From Candidatus Rokuibacteriota bacterium (GTDB taxonomy: Bacteria; Methylomirabilota; Methylomirabilia; Rokubacteriales; CSP1-6), in contig QHRU01000050.1 in NCBI GenBank assembly GCA_003220225.1, positions 1 through 64,000 of the forward strand: a stretch of 64,000 bases of DNA, read 5' to 3'. The notes under the pieces are model-generated. The model saw only the letters and a program-made list of their open reading frames with translations, had not been told where the DNA came from and did no database searches. Below, piece after piece: positions 13,034-46,746 of the stretch; the first letter of the stretch is position 1, and the number at the start of each line of letters is the position of its first letter. Both the position numbers and the translations under genes were made by a program.

Positions 13034-15159
13034 CGGGTCGCCTCCCGGAGGCGGCGGGCGAGCAGCCACGCGAGGAGCCCGGCGCCCGCCGTCTTGCCGG
13101 TCAGCAGCAGCGAGGGCAGCCCCGCGTGCAGCGCCGGGAAGCGCTCGAGCGAGTAGCGCGCGCCCAGCAGCACGGCCGCGGCGGCCAGCGCCACGCTCGC
13201 CCGCGGCGAGGCGTCCGGCGCCAGCACCAGGAGCGCCAGCGGCAGCAGGAGCACGACGAGATGGTGCTCCTCGGAAAACGGCGCCACGAGCGGCACCGCC
13301 GCCACGGCGAGGCCGAAGGCCCAGTCGAACGCGGGCGTCCCGGGCGCGGGGCGGCCGCGCGCGGCGTACGCGACGGCGGCGAGGATCGCCAGGCTCGTGG
13401 CCAGCGCCACCGGCTCCACCGCCCGCGCGCCGAGCCCGCCGTCGAGCAGCCGGTGGAGCGCGGCGTGCGGCGCGACGTTCAGGCTCCACGCGTGCAGGGA
13501 CGCCGGCATCGCGAGCGCGTGGCGCACCCAGTCGACGTGCGCGCCGGGGCCGACGGCGGCGACGCCGGCCGCGAGGCCGGCGGCGGCCACCGCGGCGGCG
13601 CGATACGCGACGGCGCGCTGGCCGATCCACCAGAGGGCCGCGATGGGGAGGCCGAACTGCGGCTTGACGTGCACCGCGAGCCCGAGCGCGAGCGCGGCGC
13701 CCCACGGCCGCCCCTGGCGCGCGCCCCGCCAGCCGAGCGCCAGGAGGGCCAGCACGACGACGTTCGCCTGGCCGAGGTGGAGCGTCTCCACGAGCGGCTG
13801 GGAGAGCGCGGCGACGGCGAGGACCGCGACGAGGCGCGCGGGCTCGGCCGCGCGGCGCCGCAGCACGAGCGCCGCCGTCACGACCAGCAACACCTGCCCC
13901 AGCGCGAGCCACGCGAGGGCGGCCGCGCGGAACGGCAGCCACGTCCACGGGCGCATCGCGACGTAGAAGAGCGGCGGGTACTTCAGCGGCGCGCCGGCGG
14001 AGCGGAGCCCGAGCTCCTCGTTGAGCCGCGCGGGCGCCGACGGGTCGAAGGCGTCGCCGCCGCGCGCCACGTGGATCGCGAAGGCGTAGTAGTGCGCGAA
14101 GTCGATGAAGCCGCCGTCGGCGGCGATCCGGATCACCGTGCCCGCGTAGGCCGCGACCAGCAGCGCGGCGGCCACCGCGAGCGCGGTCGCCGCCGGCACG
14201 CGCGCGCGCGGCGCCGCGGCGAGGTCGGCGCGGCACGCGGCGCTCGCCTCCGCGCGCGCGCCGAGCGCCGCGGATCCCGTGAGCCAGGCCCCGAGGCCGA
14301 GGGCGACCGTCCTCACGGCGAGCTCGAGCGAGGCCAGCGCGCCCGCGACGCCGCCGCCCCAGCCCGGAAAGTGCTTGTCGAAGTACGCGACGCGACTGAG
14401 GTACGCATGGCGCAGCATGCGCGCCGGGCTCCTGGCCGTCGAAGCGCCCCAGTGGTGCACGGCGACGGCCTCCGGCACGTAGCGCAGGCGGAAGCCGGCG
14501 GCGCCCAGCCGCGCGCAGAGATCGACGTCCTCCATGTACATGAAGAAGCGCTCGTCGAAGCCCTCCACCGCGTCGAACGCCTTGCGGCGGACGAGGAGAC
14601 AGGCGGCGCCGCCCCACGCCACGTCGTGCGCCGCCGCGTGGCGCCGCAGCGTGCCGCGCAGGAGCGCCGGCTTGAGCGCGGGCGCCCGGTAGAGCGCGTA
14701 CTTGAGCGAGGACGCGAAGAGCACGTCGCCGGCCTGGCTCCAGGGCGTCGGCAGCGCGTCGTGCACGGAGGGCTGCAGCGTGCCGTCGGCGTTGACGAGC
14801 CGCGCGAAGACAGCGCCCAGCGTGGCGTCGGCGTCGAGCGCGCCGAGCAGCGTGGCGAGCGCGCCGGGCGCGAGCTCGCAGTCGCTGTTGAGCAGCAGGA
14901 TGGCGCGGCCGGTGCCCGCCGCCGCGCCGACGTTGGACGCGCCCCCGAAGCCGAGGTTGGACGCGCTCTGGAGCAGCCGCACGCGCGGAAACTTCGCGGC
15001 GACCATCGCCTGCGAGCCATCGCTCGAGCCGTTGTCGACGACGATCGTCTCCACGCGCAGCCCGTCGGCGGCGCCCTCGAGCGCGGCCAGAGAGCGCGCC
15101 AGGTGCTCGCGCGTGTTCCAGGAGACGACGACGGCGGTGAGGTCCACAGGGTGTGTCAC
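13030..15159 (-). CDS. fused GT2 glycosyltransferase and GT87-type membrane glycosyltransferase
   Basis: Protein of 709 residues. The first 270 residues are a rhamnosyltransferase-like GT2 domain (VSWNTREHLARSL, VDNGSSDGSQAM, LLNSDCELAPGAL, FMYMEDVDLCARL). The rest, from about residue 330, is a multi-pass membrane protein of the GT87/DUF2029 type, with a periplasmic-style acidic loop near FIDFAHYYAFAIHVARGG and about ten hydrophobic spans. GT87 enzymes use polyprenyl-phosphate sugars on the outer face, so one chain seems to combine a cytoplasmic and an extracytoplasmic transferase. GTG at 15159 overlaps the upstream stop as GTGA. No frame break lies between the halves. Confidence 0.83.
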   Translation of the reverse strand: MTHPVDLTAVVVSWNTREHLARSLAALEGAADGLRVETIVVDNGSSDGSQAMVAAKFPRVRLLQSASNLGFGGASNVGAAAGTGRAILLLNSDCELAPGALATLLGALDADATLGAVFARLVNADGTLQPSVHDALPTPWSQAGDVLFASSLKYALYRAPALKPALLRGTLRRHAAAHDVAWGGAACLLVRRKAFDAVEGFDERFFMYMEDVDLCARLGAAGFRLRYVPEAVAVHHWGASTARSPARMLRHAYLSRVAYFDKHFPGWGGGVAGALASLELAVRTVALGLGAWLTGSAALGARAEASAACRADLAAAPRARVPAATALAVAAALLVAAYAGTVIRIAADGGFIDFAHYYAFAIHVARGGDAFDPSAPARLNEELGLRSAGAPLKYPPLFYVAMRPWTWLPFRAAALAWLALGQVLLVVTAALVLRRRAAEPARLVAVLAVAALSQPLVETLHLGQANVVVLALLALGWRGARQGRPWGAALALGLAVHVKPQFGLPIAALWWIGQRAVAYRAAAVAAAGLAAGVAAVGPGAHVDWVRHALAMPASLHAWSLNVAPHAALHRLLDGGLGARAVEPVALATSLAILAAVAYAARGRPAPGTPAFDWAFGLAVAAVPLVAPFSEEHHLVVLLLPLALLVLAPDASPRASVALAAAAVLLGARYSLERFPALHAGLPSLLLTGKTAGAGLLAWLLARRLREATR

Positions 15160-16286
15160 CGCCGCCGCCTCGGCGCGAGCGCCTCGTCGTAGACGGCCAG
15201 CGTCCGCGCGATGTACCGCTCGATGGTGAACTCGGCGGCCACGCGGGCGACGCCGGCGGCGCCGAGCCGCGCGCGCACGCCCGCGTCGGCCGCGAGCGCG
15301 CCGATCGCGTGGGCGAGCGCCGCCACATCACGCGGCGGGACGAGCAGGCCCTCGCGGCCGTCGCGGACGATCTCGGGCGTGCCCCCGCTGTTGGTGGCCA
15401 CGACGGCGGTGCCGGAGGCCATCGCCTCGAAGAGCACGCGGCCGCAGGGCTCGGCATCGGAGGCGAGCACCAGCACGTCGAGGGCGCGCATGACCTCGGG
15501 CACGTCGCGGCGGTAGCCGACGAAGCGGATGCGGTCCTCGCGGCCGGCGTCCTTGACGGCGCGGCGGAGCGCGTCGGCGCGCCAGGCGTCCTCGTCGAAG
15601 AGCGGGTCGCCGATGATCGCGAAGTGCGCGTCCACCCCGCCGCGCAGCAGCCTCACGGCGGCGCCGACGAAGTGCTCGTGGCCCTTGCCGAGCCCGATGC
15701 GCCCCACGATGCCGACCAGCGGCGCCGCGTCGGGCACGCCCAGCTCGCGGCGGAACGGCGCGCGCGGCACGCCGGGATGGAACTCGCGCGTGTCCACCGC
15801 GTTGATGATCGTCACCGAGCGATCCCAGCCGCGGCTGCCGGCGAAGCGCCGCCGGATGGCCTCCGCGTTGCAGATGATCCGCGTGGCGAGCGGCGCCAGC
15901 GCGCGGTCCACGTCCCACATGTCGCCGTGAATCAGGTTGCGCGCGTGCCAGATCACGGGCACGCCGGCGAGCCGGCCCGCGAGCCCGGCCGGGACATTGG
16001 TCTGCGGCCCGTTGGCGTGCAGCAGGTCGACGCGGTGGGCGCGCACGATCCGCACGAGGCGCGCGACGGCGCCGAGGACTCTGCCCGCGCGGCGGAGCGG
16101 GGCGAAGGCGAGCGGCAGCGTCGGCACGCCGTCGGCGGCCAGCGCCGCGGGGAACGCGCCGTGCGCGGGCCCGGCAAAGCGCGGCTCCACGCGCGCGCGG
16201 TCGAGATGGCGCAGGAGCAGGCGCAGGCTCCCCTCGGCGCCGCTCAGCTCGCCGACGTGGTGCAGGTAGAGGACCCTAGCCGGCAC
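15156..16286 (-). CDS. GT4-family glycosyltransferase
   Basis: Protein of 376 residues. LHHVGELSGAEGSLRLLLR is the N-terminal acceptor loop, HANGPQTNVPAGLAGRLAG the next landmark, VGRIGLGKGHEHFV starts the second Rossmann domain, and AEPCGRVLFEAMASGTAVV is the donor-binding motif. The GTG at 16286 is chosen because it places the conserved strand VLYLHHVG near the start; this gives an 11-base overlap with the upstream gene. It is one of the GT4 enzymes in the repeat-unit assembly block. Sugar and linkage are unknown. Confidence 0.86.
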   Translation of the reverse strand: MPARVLYLHHVGELSGAEGSLRLLLRHLDRARVEPRFAGPAHGAFPAALAADGVPTLPLAFAPLRRAGRVLGAVARLVRIVRAHRVDLLHANGPQTNVPAGLAGRLAGVPVIWHARNLIHGDMWDVDRALAPLATRIICNAEAIRRRFAGSRGWDRSVTIINAVDTREFHPGVPRAPFRRELGVPDAAPLVGIVGRIGLGKGHEHFVGAAVRLLRGGVDAHFAIIGDPLFDEDAWRADALRRAVKDAGREDRIRFVGYRRDVPEVMRALDVLVLASDAEPCGRVLFEAMASGTAVVATNSGGTPEIVRDGREGLLVPPRDVAALAHAIGALAADAGVRARLGAAGVARVAAEFTIERYIARTLAVYDEALAPRRRR

Positions 16287-17463
16287 GGCGCGCCTTTCCT
16301 CGGGCGGCCGCGCGCGCCAGCACCCGCTCGTAGCCCTCGGCCACCCGGTCCCACGCGTAGAGCGCGGCCGCGCGGCGACGTCCCGCCTCGCCGAGGGCAC
16401 GGCGTCGCGCCGGGTCGTGGGCCAGCGCCGCGATCGCGTCGCCGAGGGCGATGGGATCGCCCGGCGGCACCAGCACGCCGGCGTCACCGACGACCTCGGG
16501 CAGCGCGGTCGAGCGCACGCTGACGACGGCGCGGCCGTAGCTCATCGCCTGCGCCACCACGAGCCCGAACGTCTCGTAGGTCGAGTGGAAGGCGAAGAGG
16601 TCGCAGGCCTCGAAGTACGCGCCGAGCGCGGCGCGCGGGACGTAGCCCGCGAAGCGCACGTGCTTGTCGATCCCCAGCTCCGCGGCCAGCGCGCGCAGCG
16701 CTTGCGCCTCGGGCCCGGTGCCGCCGATCACCAGCGTGACGGCGGCGCCGGCGTCGAGGCCGCGCCGCAGCGCGTGCAGCAGCGCGTCGACGCGCTTCTC
16801 GGGCGCGAGGCGCTGGAGCGCGAACACGAGGACGTTGCCCGGTGGGACGTCGAGGGCGGCGCGAACCGCGCAGCCGTTGCCGGGCGGCGGCGGGATCTCG
16901 ACGCCGTTGGCGACCACCTCGCCCCGCCCGCGGCCGGGACCGTAGATGGCGTCGCGGCAGTATCCGGAGACGTAGGTCGCGTCGGTCACCAGCGCGATGA
17001 GCGCGCGCTGCCACCAGCGCCAGAGCGCCGGCACGCCGGGGCCCGGCACGTCGCGGCCATTCATCGTGAGCACGGTCGGCACGCCGAGCCGGCGGTCGGC
17101 GACGACGGCGGCGAGCCCGGTCGGCATCGCGTAGTGGACGTTGAGCACGTCGGGACGCGCGGAGGCGATCGCGCGGCGCACGGCGGCCACCGCCGACAGC
17201 GAGAACGGCGGCAGCGCGCCGGCCGTGACGCGATGCCCGCGCACGCGCATCAGCGTCACGCGGTCTTCGTAGCGCTCGACCGGGAACGTCACCAGCGCGT
17301 CGTATTCCGACGACCCGTGGTCGCGGCGCAGCGACTCCGGCAGCACCGGCGTCAGCAGGCGGACGTCGTGGCGCCGCGCCAGGCGGCGGTAGACCTCGAG
17401 GAGCACCAGCTCGGCGCCGCCGACGACCGGCAGGAAGGTGGGCGTGAGGACGAGGATCTTCAC
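16276..17463 (-). CDS. GT4-family glycosyltransferase
   Basis: Protein of 395 residues, opening VKILVLTPTFLPVVGGAELV, a typical GT4 start. Other landmarks are NVHYAMPTGLAA, TMNGRDVPG, LQRLAPEKRVDALLHAL and STYETFGLVVAQAMSYGRAVV (donor site). GTG at 17463 overlaps the upstream stop as GTGA. Translation and transcription are presumably coupled to the other GT genes. The substrate is not readable from the sequence. Confidence 0.88.
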   Translation of the reverse strand: MKILVLTPTFLPVVGGAELVLLEVYRRLARRHDVRLLTPVLPESLRRDHGSSEYDALVTFPVERYEDRVTLMRVRGHRVTAGALPPFSLSAVAAVRRAIASARPDVLNVHYAMPTGLAAVVADRRLGVPTVLTMNGRDVPGPGVPALWRWWQRALIALVTDATYVSGYCRDAIYGPGRGRGEVVANGVEIPPPPGNGCAVRAALDVPPGNVLVFALQRLAPEKRVDALLHALRRGLDAGAAVTLVIGGTGPEAQALRALAAELGIDKHVRFAGYVPRAALGAYFEACDLFAFHSTYETFGLVVAQAMSYGRAVVSVRSTALPEVVGDAGVLVPPGDPIALGDAIAALAHDPARRRALGEAGRRRAAALYAWDRVAEGYERVLARAAARGKARRAG

Positions 17464-18551
17464 ACCAGCACCCGGCGGTAGACCGCGCGCGTCTCTTCCG
17501 CGATGGCGGGCCAGGCGACGCGCGCCGCGAGCTTGCGGGCGCCCTGGGCCAGCCGCGCGCGCTCGGCCGACGAGGCGAGCAGCGCGGCGAGCCGCGCGGC
17601 AAGCGCCGCGGCGTCGCGCGGGGGCACGAGCGCGACGTTGTCGGCGTCGCGCAGGTACGCGGACGGCGCAGCGGGCGAGGTGCTGACCACGGGCAGGCCG
17701 TGGGCGAGCCCGGCCATGAGGCTGCCGCGACGGATGGAGGCACCGCCGTCGAACGGCGCCACGAACACGTCGGCGGCGGCGAGGATCCGCGAGACGTCCT
17801 CGTCGGTACGGCGGCCCGTCCACGTCACCGCGGCGGCCACGCCGAGCCGGAGGGCGAGCGCCTCGAGCCCCGCGCGATACGCACGCTCGCTCTCGCGCGT
17901 GTCGCCGATCACGACGAGGCACGCCTCGGGGCGCGCGCGACGCAGCATCGCGAGCGCCTCGAGCAGCGTCTCCATCCCCTTGCCCGGGTACACGAGGCCG
18001 AAGTGGGCCAGCAACGGCGCGCGCGCCGGCACGCCGAGCGCCGCGCGCGTCGCGAGCGGATCGCCGCCCGCCGCCACCGCGATGTTGGAGCCGATGGGAA
18101 TCTCGGTCAGCCGCCGCGCCAGCCAGCGCAGCCGGCGGCGCACCATGGCCGTGACCTCCTCGTTGGCGGCGACCACGTGGCGCGCGCTCGTGAGCAGCCA
18201 GAGGGCGGCCGCGCGCGAGCCGAGGGTGGCGTCGAGAAGCGTGTGGACGGTGACGACGGCCGGCGTGGAGAACGTCGCCCGGAGCGCGCGGCGCCGGTGG
18301 CGATAGAGGTCGGGCGCGTACTGGAGGTTCACGACGTCGGCGGCGACGACCCGCCACCACGGCGCCGCGTCGTCGAGGATCGGGAGCACGGCCACGCCGC
18401 CGCGCGCGGGGCCGCGCCACGCCGCGGAGGCGACCACGGTCACCTGCTCGCCCTGGCGCGCCAGCTCCTCGGCGAGGCAGCGCGTGTAGTCGCCGACCCC
18501 GCACGTGACGGCCTGCGGTGGGTACGACGGGCACGCGATCAGGACGCGCAC
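17460..18551 (-). CDS. GT4-family glycosyltransferase
   Basis: Protein of 363 residues, opening VRVLIACPSYPPQAVTCGVG, with the GDYT acceptor loop, VNLQYAPDLYRH, HFGLVYPGKGMETLLEAL (second domain) and FDGGASIRRGSLMAGLAHG in place of the usual EGFG donor motif, as in several GT4 relatives. The GTG at 18551 gives a 13-base overlap with the membrane protein gene upstream; a later start would remove conserved residues. It is predicted to be cytoplasmic. The donor is unknown. Confidence 0.84.
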   Translation of the reverse strand: MRVLIACPSYPPQAVTCGVGDYTRCLAEELARQGEQVTVVASAAWRGPARGGVAVLPILDDAAPWWRVVAADVVNLQYAPDLYRHRRRALRATFSTPAVVTVHTLLDATLGSRAAALWLLTSARHVVAANEEVTAMVRRRLRWLARRLTEIPIGSNIAVAAGGDPLATRAALGVPARAPLLAHFGLVYPGKGMETLLEALAMLRRARPEACLVVIGDTRESERAYRAGLEALALRLGVAAAVTWTGRRTDEDVSRILAAADVFVAPFDGGASIRRGSLMAGLAHGLPVVSTSPAAPSAYLRDADNVALVPPRDAAALAARLAALLASSAERARLAQGARKLAARVAWPAIAEETRAVYRRVLV

Positions 18552-19996
18552 GCCGGCACCTCCAGCGCGCGCGGCCGCCACACCCGCGCGATGAGCCGGC
18601 TGACCCCGAGCAGCGCGAGCGCGTTGAGGATGAAGAACAGCACCTGGTGCAGCGTCAGCGTCAGCCCCTCGAGCGTCGGCAGCCGCGCCAGCAGATCGCG
18701 CGCGCTCACGTCGGGCCGCGCGACGACCGTGTGCAGCGTGTCGAGGCCGGTCCACACGGGCAGCGCCTCCTTGAACAGCACGCCCATCCCCGTGCCCGAC
18801 ACGAACGTCTTGAGCGCGTACGGCAGCGCGTTGGGCACGGGCGCGAAGCCCGCCTGGGCGCCGAGATAGCCGCACACGAGCGACGGCACCGCCAGGAGCA
18901 GCAGCGCGCGGCGCCCCAGGCGCTCGAGCACGACGCCCGTGAACGCGGCCAGCAGCGGCAGCGCGGGAAAGAGGTAGCGCGCGCCGAGGCCGTGCGACCA
19001 CGAGGCGCGGTCGGCGAACTGCGACTGCCACGAGGCGCCGATGACGACGAGGGCCGCGAGGAGCGTGACCGTCAGCGCCGCCTCCGCGCGCCGCGCCCCG
19101 CGCCAGGCCGTGGCGAGACCGGCCAGCGCGGTGAGGAGAAACGGGGAGTAGAGGAACAGCCCGCCGCGCGGGCCGACGAGGAAGTCGGCGACGATCGCCG
19201 GCTTGGGCGCCACGAATCTCGTCTGGAGCCCGGTGATCGCGGAGTACGACGTGCGCCACGGCGCGCCGAAGAGCCACGTGTCGTAGACGCCCAGGGCGAG
19301 CGCGAAGGGCGCGCCGCCCAGCGCGAAGGCCGCCGCCGCGCGCGCGCCGCTCCGCGCCAGGACGACGAAGCCGAGCAGGAGCGGCAGCAGCACGACCGAG
19401 TGGGTGAGCAGCACCGCCGCGCCGGCGAGCGCCCCGGCCGCCGCCCGGTGGCCCGCCCCACCGACGAGCGCGAGCCGGACAGCCATCGCGAGGGCGAGCG
19501 CGGTGAGACTCTCCTTCGTCAGCATGGTGCCGAACTGAAACGCCTGCGTGCCGAGCGCGAACAGCAGCGCGGCCAGCACGCGGCCGCGGCGGGACGCGCC
19601 CAGCCAGCCCGCGAGCCAGGCCACCTGCACCGCGGTCAGCGCCATGGCCGGCGCGCAGAGCAGCAGGACGACCACGGCGTTGACCGTCTCGAGCCCGGTC
19701 CAGCCCTCGACGGGCGCGCCGCCCGCGACGCGCCAGACGGCGTAGACCGGCGCGATCACCAGCGAGGTGCCGAACGGCACGCCCGGCACCACGCGGCCCG
19801 CGCGGGAGGTGGCCGTGTCCTTGCCCTCGTAGAGCCGCCAGTGCACGAGCTCCCAGCGGCCCGTGTCGACCAGCGACACCGCGCCGTCGACGAAGTTGTC
19901 GCTGTTGGAGAACTGCAGCCACGGGTTCCAGAACGCGACGTAGACCAGGAGCGCGGTGACGAAGATGCGGGCGCCGTCCGAGCGCCACGCGCTCAC
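18539..19996 (-). CDS. polytopic membrane protein, possible GT-C glycosyltransferase
   Basis: Protein of 485 residues with about ten to eleven hydrophobic spans. The first extracytoplasmic loop (NSDNFVDGAVSLVDTGRWEL) carries acidic residues, as in polyprenyl-phosphate-dependent GT-C enzymes (ArnT/DUF2029-like). A later loop reads GPRGGLFLYSPFLL, a segment seen in related uncharacterised membrane proteins. GTG at 19996 overlaps the upstream stop as GTGA. It lies next to a GT87 gene, so an outer-face glycosyltransferase is likely, but no catalytic residue can be assigned with certainty. Confidence 0.65.
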   Translation of the reverse strand: MSAWRSDGARIFVTALLVYVAFWNPWLQFSNSDNFVDGAVSLVDTGRWELVHWRLYEGKDTATSRAGRVVPGVPFGTSLVIAPVYAVWRVAGGAPVEGWTGLETVNAVVVLLLCAPAMALTAVQVAWLAGWLGASRRGRVLAALLFALGTQAFQFGTMLTKESLTALALAMAVRLALVGGAGHRAAAGALAGAAVLLTHSVVLLPLLLGFVVLARSGARAAAAFALGGAPFALALGVYDTWLFGAPWRTSYSAITGLQTRFVAPKPAIVADFLVGPRGGLFLYSPFLLTALAGLATAWRGARRAEAALTVTLLAALVVIGASWQSQFADRASWSHGLGARYLFPALPLLAAFTGVVLERLGRRALLLLAVPSLVCGYLGAQAGFAPVPNALPYALKTFVSGTGMGVLFKEALPVWTGLDTLHTVVARPDVSARDLLARLPTLEGLTLTLHQVLFFILNALALLGVSRLIARVWRPRALEVPACAS

Positions 19997-44581: not shown

Positions 44582-44611
44582 GGTACCATGCCGCGTAGCG
44601 AGGAGAGCCCG

Positions 44612-45517
44612 ATGGCGTTCGCCCCCGAGCACGACGTCCCGATCCCGTACATGCAGCGTACGCGCGACTATTACCTGAGGCTCGGCTACGGCGCGTATCG
44701 GTGGGCCCACTTCGCCGAGGTGCCGTTCACGCCGCCGCTCGAGCCGCTGGCGCAGTCGCGCCTGGCGCTGATCACGACCGCCGCGCCGTACCAGCCGGGC
44801 GTGGGCGACCAGGGACCGGGCGCGCCCTACAACGCCGCCGCGAAATTCTACAAGGTCTACTCCGAGGCCAGCGACACGGTGCCCGATCTGCGCATCTCGC
44901 ACGTCGGCTACGACCGCGTCCACACGAAGGCCGAGGATCCGAACACCTGGCTGCCTCTCGCGCAGCTGCAGAAGGCCGTGAAGTCCGGGCGGCTCGGCGC
45001 GCTCACCCCGCGGTTCCACGGCGCGCCGACGAACCGGAGCCAGCGGGTGACGCTGGAGACGGACGCGCCGGAGCTCCTGCGACGCTGCCGGGACGACGGC
45101 GCCGACGTCGCGCTCCTCGTCCCCAGCTGACCCGTCTGTCACCAGACCGTGAGTCTGGTCGCGCGGCACCTCGAGGCCAACGGCATCCCGACCGTCATCA
45201 TGGGTTGCGCCAAGGACATCGTGGAGCACTGCGGCGTGCCGCGCTTCCTCTTCAGCGACTTCCCGCTCGGCAACTCCGCCGGACGCCCGTTCGACCTCGA
45301 GTCGCAGGCGCTCACGCTGGAGCTGACGCTGCGCGTGCTGGAGACGGCGCCGGCGGCGCGCACCACGGTCCAGTCGCCGCTGCGCTGGCAGGAGGACGCC
45401 TCGTGGAAGCTCGACTTCTCGAACCTCGACCGGATGACGCCCGAGCAGATCGCCGAGCGGCGCCGCGAGTTCGACGAGATCAAGGCCATCGCGAAGACGA
45501 AGCGCGACGAGGCATAG
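44612..45517 (+). CDS. selenoprotein of the glycine/betaine/sarcosine/D-proline reductase B family (in-frame UGA = Sec)
   Basis: Reading TGA at 45128-45130 as selenocysteine gives one 301-residue protein. The halves before and after the TGA are in the same frame, and the joint reads LLVPS-U-PVCHQTVSLVARHL, with U173 and C176 forming a UxxC redox motif, as known for family members whose UPVCHQ segment is followed by ARHLEANGIPT. A perfect 7-bp hairpin starts 10 bases after the TGA. ATG at 44612 is preceded by GAGGAG. The family reduces C-N bonds via a selenol; this short version lacks GrdA, GrdC and PrdA partners here, so the substrate is unknown. A CoA transferase gene follows. Confidence 0.85.
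45141..45159 (+). promoter_or_regulatory. bacterial SECIS-like hairpin
   Basis: ACCAGAC (45141-45147) pairs perfectly with GTCTGGT (45153-45159) around the loop CGTGA. The loop begins 17 bases after the UGA and has G at its second position, within the accepted distance (about 16-37 bases) and loop rule for bacterial SECIS elements. It would recruit SelB to insert selenocysteine at 45128-45130. Confidence 0.8.
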
Positions 45518-45544
45518 CCCCAGGGAGGCCACCCCCAGGGAGGG
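45518..45544 (+). repeat. tandem CCCCAGGGAGG motifs before a start codon
   Basis: CCCCAGGGAGG (45518-45528) and CCCCCAGGGAGGG (45532-45544) follow the selenoprotein stop directly and precede the GTG of the CoA transferase gene by eight bases. The G-rich half is the ribosome site and can pair with the C-run before it. Same motif class as at 1627, 5481, 24495 and 25199. Confidence 0.6.
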
Positions 45545-45552
45545 CCAAGCAA

Positions 45553-46746
45553 GTGAGCAAGCCGTTCGCGGGCGTCCGGATCCTCGACTTCACCCGCTAT
45601 CTCGCGGGCCCGTACGGAACCTATCAGCTGGCGCTGCTCGGCGCCGACGTCGTCAAGATCGAGTCGCACGAGGGCGACGAGTCGCGCCACCTGCTCGTCA
45701 GCAAGCAATGGGCGGACCGCAAGATGGCGTCCTCGTTCCTCGCGGTGAACGCCAACAAGCGCAGCATCACGCTGGATCTGCGTAAGCCGGCGGCGGTCGA
45801 GGTCGTCAAGCGGCTGGCGACCCGCGCCGACGTCGTGTGGGAGAACTTCCGGCCCGGGGTCATGGACCGGCTGGGACTCGGCTACAAGACGCTCGCCGCG
45901 ATCAATCCGCGGCTCATCTACTGCGCCGTCTCCGGCTTCGGCCACACGGGCCCGGAGCGCACGACGGCGGCCTTCGACGGCAAGCTGCAGGCGATGTCCG
46001 GGATCATGTCGATCACCGGCGAGCCCGCGGGCGGGCCGATGCGCGCGGGGTTCGCGCTCTGCGACACCATCGGCGGCATGACGGCCGCGCTGGCGGTGTC
46101 GAGCGCGCTCTACCAGCGCACGCACACCGGCCGCGGCCAGTTCGTGGACGTCGCCATGCTGGACGCCGCGCTGGCGTTCATCCCGGGCCCGGTCTCCGAG
46201 TACACGGTGGCGGGCATCCCGCAGCGGCAGATCGGCAACGGCTCGGTGAGCCGCAAGCCGACGGCGAGCCGCTTCCGCGCCGGCGACGGCTACCTCGTCC
46301 TCGCCGTGCTGACCGAAAAGCAATTCGCGAGCCTCATGCGCACGCTCGGCCGCGCCGACGCGCTCGAGGACCCGCGCTTCAAGGACTGGCGGGCGCGCAC
46401 GGACAACGACGCCGCGCTGCGCGAGGTGATCGAGACCGCCCTGGCCAAGGACGATCCGAAGTCCTGGGAAGCGCGGCTCACCGCCGCCGACGTCCCGTGC
46501 GCCACCGTCTGGAAGATCGAGGAGATCACGCGGCACCCACAGCTGGAATCCCGCGACGTGCTGCAGACCATCGACTCGCGCTACGGGCCGATGCGCCTGG
46601 TGGGCGCGGGGTTCCGGCTGGCGCATGGCGGCCCCGGCATCGAGCGGGAGCCGCCGACCCTCGGTGAGCACACCGACGAGATCCTCGGCGAAGCGGGTTA
46701 CGAGCCGGCGGAGATCGCGCGCTTGCGGCGGGACGCGGTCGTCTGA
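45553..46746 (+). CDS. family III CoA transferase (CaiB/BaiF type)
   Basis: Protein of 397 residues, the usual length. It opens VSKPFAGVRILDFTRYLAGP, and has LGADVVKIESHEGDESR, NANKRSITLDLRKP, ENFRPGVMDRLGLGY, SGFGHTGPE and GRGQFVDVAMLDAALAF; the Asp of MLDAALA matches the position of the acyl-carrying aspartate of formyl-CoA transferase. It moves CoA between carboxylic acids. GTG at 45553 follows the GGGAGGG site. Direct pairing with the selenoprotein suggests that the two act on one substrate or its product; the acid is unknown. Confidence 0.9.
   Translation: MSKPFAGVRILDFTRYLAGPYGTYQLALLGADVVKIESHEGDESRHLLVSKQWADRKMASSFLAVNANKRSITLDLRKPAAVEVVKRLATRADVVWENFRPGVMDRLGLGYKTLAAINPRLIYCAVSGFGHTGPERTTAAFDGKLQAMSGIMSITGEPAGGPMRAGFALCDTIGGMTAALAVSSALYQRTHTGRGQFVDVAMLDAALAFIPGPVSEYTVAGIPQRQIGNGSVSRKPTASRFRAGDGYLVLAVLTEKQFASLMRTLGRADALEDPRFKDWRARTDNDAALREVIETALAKDDPKSWEARLTAADVPCATVWKIEEITRHPQLESRDVLQTIDSRYGPMRLVGAGFRLAHGGPGIEREPPTLGEHTDEILGEAGYEPAEIARLRRDAVV

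Follow-up and report, generated by a model that had tools for sequence, protein, structure and literature searches.

A predicted PrdB-like selenoprotein gene paired with a CoA-transferase gene in a Rokubacteria genome

Gene structure at the locus

The DNA analysed here (the window, a 64,000-nucleotide stretch from a Candidatus Rokuibacteriota bacterium) carries a prdB-like gene in which one reading frame leads from an ATG start codon to a TAG stop with a TGA codon inside it (Table 1). If this TGA is read as selenocysteine (Sec), the residues that begin with it form the extended motif U-P-V-C-H-Q-T. A bacterial SECIS-type hairpin follows, and the next gene downstream is predicted to encode a class III CoA-transferase.

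Standard ORF calling with translation table 11 divides the same region into two ORFs, one of 180 amino acids (44588..45130) and one of 122 amino acids (45149..45517), with the break at the U-P-V-C site. The original prediction held that two frames join through the TGA at 45128 and that automated annotation would split the gene, and both points stand: the joined frame is a single one of 301 residues, and relatives read through the site. The end that it gave for the gene, 45544, lies 27 bases too far, as the TAG stop ends at 45517. When TGA-joined frames were filtered across the 64-kb window, only 44612–45517 combined a convincing hairpin with a conserved motif; three further TGA-joined frames under the same filter resemble in-frame neighbouring genes. 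The locus is a clean worked example of how standard-code gene calling cuts a gene at its active site.

Table 1 Features of the prdB-like locus in the window
Feature	Position	Strand	Details or basis
Shine-Dalgarno-like GAGGAGAG stretch before ATG 44612	44595..44611	+	Sequence
prdB-like selenoprotein gene (predicted)	44612..45517	+	301 aa; Sec = residue 173; stop TAG 45515-45517
UGA codon read as Sec (U173)	45128..45130	+	Aligned with Cys in 64 homologues, TGA in 16 others and Terrisporobacter PrdB Sec151
U-P-V-C motif	45128-45139	+	Starts with U173
SECIS-type hairpin, bacterial	45141..45159	+	7-bp stem, loop CGTGA
Class III CoA-transferase (CaiB/BaiF type) gene	45553..46746	+	PF02515, 9.7e-116; neighbour kept across loci

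The equivalence of UGA and Cys codons among relatives, the retention of the hairpin in Sec forms and the presence of Sec machinery in the genome all bear out the selenoprotein reading. On these comparisons, 44612–45517 is almost certainly (probability about 0.96) a true selenoprotein gene of the PrdB/GrdB superfamily.

Relationship to known reductases and their partner subunits

The predicted protein matches the GRDB superfamily model PF07355 with 29.3 bits, above the gathering cut-off of 22, in an alignment confined to the model's C-terminal region (positions 208–344 of 347). The best NCBIfam model is PrdB (TIGR04483), with an E value of 1.4e-24 and 86.8 bits against an equivalog cut-off of 300, and the TIGR01918 subfamily model scores 34.1 bits against a cut-off of 65.45. 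The original assignment to the reductase B family therefore holds at the level of the superfamily, with PrdB as the nearest relative, but it does not extend to glycine, betaine or D-proline reductase, as the scores stay below these family cut-offs and searches for the partner subunits found none. In an AlphaFold model (pLDDT 90, pTM 0.91), Sec173 is placed between a strand (residues 166–170) and a helix that starts at residue 174. No relative of the protein was found among solved structures in the PDB, either by sequence or by fold with the AlphaFold model.

The cores of D-proline reductase PrdB and the window protein are homologous, and in both a UxxCH motif places Sec in the same alignment column. 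Specifically, BLASTP aligns the protein with Terrisporobacter PrdB at 31% identity over 234 residues and places Sec173 on Sec151. The two differ in the motif itself (UPVCHQT in the window protein, UGTCHRS in Terrisporobacter PrdB) and in length (301 versus 241 residues), with extra N- and C-terminal segments in the window protein. Furthermore, prdA adjoins prdB in Terrisporobacter, whereas PrdA was not found in the window's genome. GrdB, GrdF and GrdH (PF07355, TIGR01918) likewise carry Sec at the same place, but the window protein has UxxC and lacks the third Cys of the GrdB motif UxxCxxC (PMC13188914). Cys relatives from Roseomonas and Haematobacter bear the NCBI label ‘glycine/sarcosine/betaine reductase selenoprotein B family protein’.

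The top rank of the PrdB model and the Sec-on-Sec alignment with Terrisporobacter PrdB would also be seen if the gene encoded PrdB proper, or a glycine, betaine or sarcosine reductase B protein, whose pyruvoyl subunit is encoded elsewhere in the genome. We consider this very unlikely, given the large shortfall from the PrdB cut-off and the searches for partners. PrdA (TIGR04480) had no match in this genome or in nine other family-holding genomes, whereas a control plasmid scored 976.5 bits. GrdE (PF09338) was not found in this genome, yet the same search was positive in 20 of 94 phylum genomes, and GrdA had no match here in a search run without a positive control. A missed partner gene is possible but unlikely because the assembly is 97% complete.

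GrdE often adjoins GrdB-type paralogues of the window protein, as at G105:C83, G104:C145 and G089:C144. These paralogues thus have a GrdE partner of their own, and the window subfamily seems to stand alone, without a pyruvoyl partner.

The GrdB-type paralogues (L122–L125; G105:C83, G104:C145, G089:C144 and G083:C49) are about 260–280 amino acids long, lie beside a GrdE-type gene and align to GrdB over its C-terminal region alone (about 166–431 of 431). At the UxxC site of one of them, L125, the sequence is U-G-S-G, so that the second Cys is absent. Another, L123 (3004-3807), weakly matches the UGSC (seleno)protein model NF041046 (22.2 bits versus a cut-off of 125), which hints at a possible remote kinship between the UGSC and GrdB families. 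Some Methylomirabilota paralogues (L119–L121, about 400 amino acids) carry a long C-terminal extension.

The UGA codon, its hairpin and the Sec machinery

The window was compared with its nearest 80 loci, drawn from a set of one genome per species. The homologous codon is TGA in 17 rows (window included) and TGC or TGT in 64 (49 and 15, respectively), and each Cys homologue has one continuous frame across the site. Residue 173 (U or C) and the following P174, V175, C176, H177, Q178 and T179 are invariant in the alignment. On a maximum-likelihood tree, only three changes explain the Sec/Cys label. A single supported clade of Rokubacteria/Methylomirabilota and marine Alphaproteobacteria holds 15 of the 17 Sec rows, and the other two (L066 and L082) fall outside it. 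Two MAGs of marine Alphaproteobacteria, L046 and L067, carry the Sec form of the window protein's subfamily, and the Cys form of the family occurs in many Bradyrhizobium and Acetobacteraceae.

Homologues are present in 68 of 95 phylum genomes (120 matches), and exactly one in-frame TGA is found in all 118 that span the site. The TGA is at the Sec position in all 20 distant phylum homologues inspected. Methylomirabilota have several groups of PrdB/GrdB-like paralogues, about 26–53% identical to the window protein, and because all of them carry one in-frame UGA, annotation can easily miss their functions.

The hairpin is exactly as originally claimed: ACCAGAC (45141–45147) and GTCTGGT (45153–45159) form seven of seven pairs around the loop CGTGA (45148–45152), with a gap of 10 bases between UGA and stem. 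Taken from the lone sequence, it is weak evidence, because its thermodynamic folding z score of 0.09 is nothing special and 1.4% of synonymous recodings of the window sequence also reach seven of seven pairs. An Rfam search of the region returned one chance match only, far under the gathering score.

The comparison of Sec with Cys forms is more telling. Sec rows have a near-uniform CAG ACC GTG AGT CTG, with GTG in 17 of 17 and AGT, a rare Ser codon that accounts for 4 of 79 Ser codons in the window genes, in 16 of 17. Cys rows encode the same amino acids mostly with GTC AGC, and an A-T pair of the stem is broken. Six or seven of the seven pairs are present in 16 of the 17 Sec rows (Mann–Whitney p = 4e-7 versus Cys rows, uncorrected for kinship). 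In distant phylum paralogues (L106–L125), the hairpin is kept in the same register, with compensatory changes on both sides in five of the seven pairs. Among these stems, 92% of cells are paired versus 67% in shuffles, a level that none of 2,000 shuffles reaches, and pairing falls to 43% or less once the register slides. The distinct stems include CAGTC/GACTG, CACAC/GTGTG and TCGTTGC/GCAACGA. The paralogue statistics ignore kinship, but several distinct stem sequences would be hard to explain by descent alone.

The gene might encode a selenoprotein and yet rely on another insertion signal, the hairpin being a mere by-product of the peptide HQTVSL. The ordinary folding of the lone sequence fits this proposal, as does the retention of five or six of the seven pairs in most Cys forms, in which the peptide is conserved. 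However, GTG AGT and the pairing are kept in Sec forms and mostly not in Cys forms. Most of the distant paralogues carry other post-Sec peptides, and those with HQSVGL, THTGGV or NRCGAT rebuild the stem in the same register, which makes the by-product explanation highly improbable. The comparative evidence that the hairpin serves as a SECIS element is strong, combining the 17 TGA and 64 TGC/TGT codons, the retention of the structure in Sec forms and the covariation among paralogues.

Machinery for Sec insertion, suggested as a check when the gene was predicted, is present in the same genome in the form of selA, selB, selC and selD. On contig C5, selA (17007-18359; 584.8 bits) adjoins selB (15074-16951; 372 bits), and the same contig carries tRNA-Sec (19682-19775; 69.7 bits), which ARAGORN identifies as SeC with anticodon TCA. 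The selD gene (L100, G000:C159:12780-13730; 335.3 bits) has one in-frame TGA of its own, and its product, selenophosphate synthetase, is probably itself a selenoprotein here. All four scores are above cut-off. Of the genomes that carry the Sec form, 15 of 16 have a selB match above cut-off, compared with 9 of 25 sampled genomes that carry the Cys form (Fisher p = 2.7e-4). The exception among Sec forms is L046, a 2.3-Mb MAG with no selB above cut-off, probably as a result of its incompleteness. From this anatomy and machinery, we infer that SelB would bring selenocysteyl-tRNA to the hairpin just 3′ of the UGA and that Sec would be inserted at position 173.

If the TGA were an ordinary stop, the locus would hold two genes, one for a C-terminally truncated protein and one for a downstream ORF from GTG 45149, which is what mechanical ORF calling yields. 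Close homologues with an ordinary stop and an independent start had been named as evidence that would count against the original prediction, but the Cys homologues read straight through. Because all 64 non-TGA relatives continue via TGC or TGT, there is no separate downstream gene. Furthermore, invariant residues flank the TGA on both sides and the site is the catalytic motif, leaving the two-gene arrangement with barely any probability. A single base change could also turn a Cys codon (TGC or TGT) into TGA, in a pseudogene or through a sequencing error, but the likelihood of either is negligible, as the same TGA occurs in 16 other assemblies of the nearest relatives and in 118 of 118 site-spanning phylum homologues, the hairpin is intact and the genome has the Sec machinery.

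The CoA-transferase neighbour and a possible reaction

The CoA-transferase gene begins 35 bases downstream of the predicted selenoprotein gene. Adjacency was assessed by tblastn on loci with room to show it, in DNA of 72% GC. A CoA-transferase (54–92% identical) lies directly downstream in 15 of 17 Sec loci versus 10 of 61 Cys loci, so that the pair occurs in 24 relatives' loci as well as in the window. The neighbour is not obligatory, because 51 of the 61 Cys loci have no adjacent copy.

By analogy with GrdB and PrdB chemistry, and given the UxxC motif, we tentatively propose that Sec173, a selenolate at the N-terminal end of its helix, would act as the nucleophile towards a small substrate. 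Its point of attack would probably be the carbon beside a leaving group, in either an organic acid or the corresponding CoA ester. Cys176 might then resolve the resulting selenoether or selenylsulfide, and a thioredoxin-type donor could reset the enzyme. Such a reductase would dispense with a pyruvoyl partner of the kind that D-proline and glycine reductases have. Its substrate or product would be activated as a CoA ester by the CoA-transferase, whose gene appears to belong to the same operon; on the conserved adjacency, we give such a CoA-linked pathway roughly even odds. Taken as a whole, the reading that we favour, with some reserve, is that these proteins form a distinct PrdB/GrdB branch of single Sec (or Cys) reductases that would act on an as yet unnamed substrate, without a pyruvoyl partner and in a dedicated class III CoA-transferase pathway, in soil and marine bacteria missing the classical D-proline or glycine reductase partners. 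The conserved CoA-transferase pair and the missing pyruvoyl partner offer a concrete handle on what the family reduces.

PrdB-type selenoproteins are already known, having been published from marine metagenomes since 2005. ‘Proline reductase PrdB’ selenoproteins were reported as 42 sequences from the Sargasso Sea (PMC1088965) and as 235 sequences with UxxC from the GOS data (PMC2398784). They resemble the window protein in family label and motif, the two features by which they were compared, and the available portions of the two papers give neither a CoA-transferase link nor a Rokubacteria/Methylomirabilota distribution for them. Reviews also list PrdB-type UxxC selenoproteins (PMC9312934, PMC13188914), and one mentions that 63 selenoprotein genes are predicted in a MAG of Methylomirabilota (PMC13188914). 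In the literature searched, no paper was found that ties Rokubacteria to the PrdB-like family. The freshest points are the phylum-wide distribution of the UGA (118 of 118) and the link to a CoA-transferase.

Other neighbours were also seen. At L066 and L082, a similar-looking protein of ~250–270 residues with a signal-like N-terminus replaces the CoA-transferase, about 525–1375 bases past the Sec codon. A family relative on Roseomonas plasmid p546-2 (L127) lies beside the gene for SelO, a protein adenylyltransferase, which is encoded on the opposite strand, and clusters of upstream neighbours in Bradyrhizobium are seen in Cys loci only.
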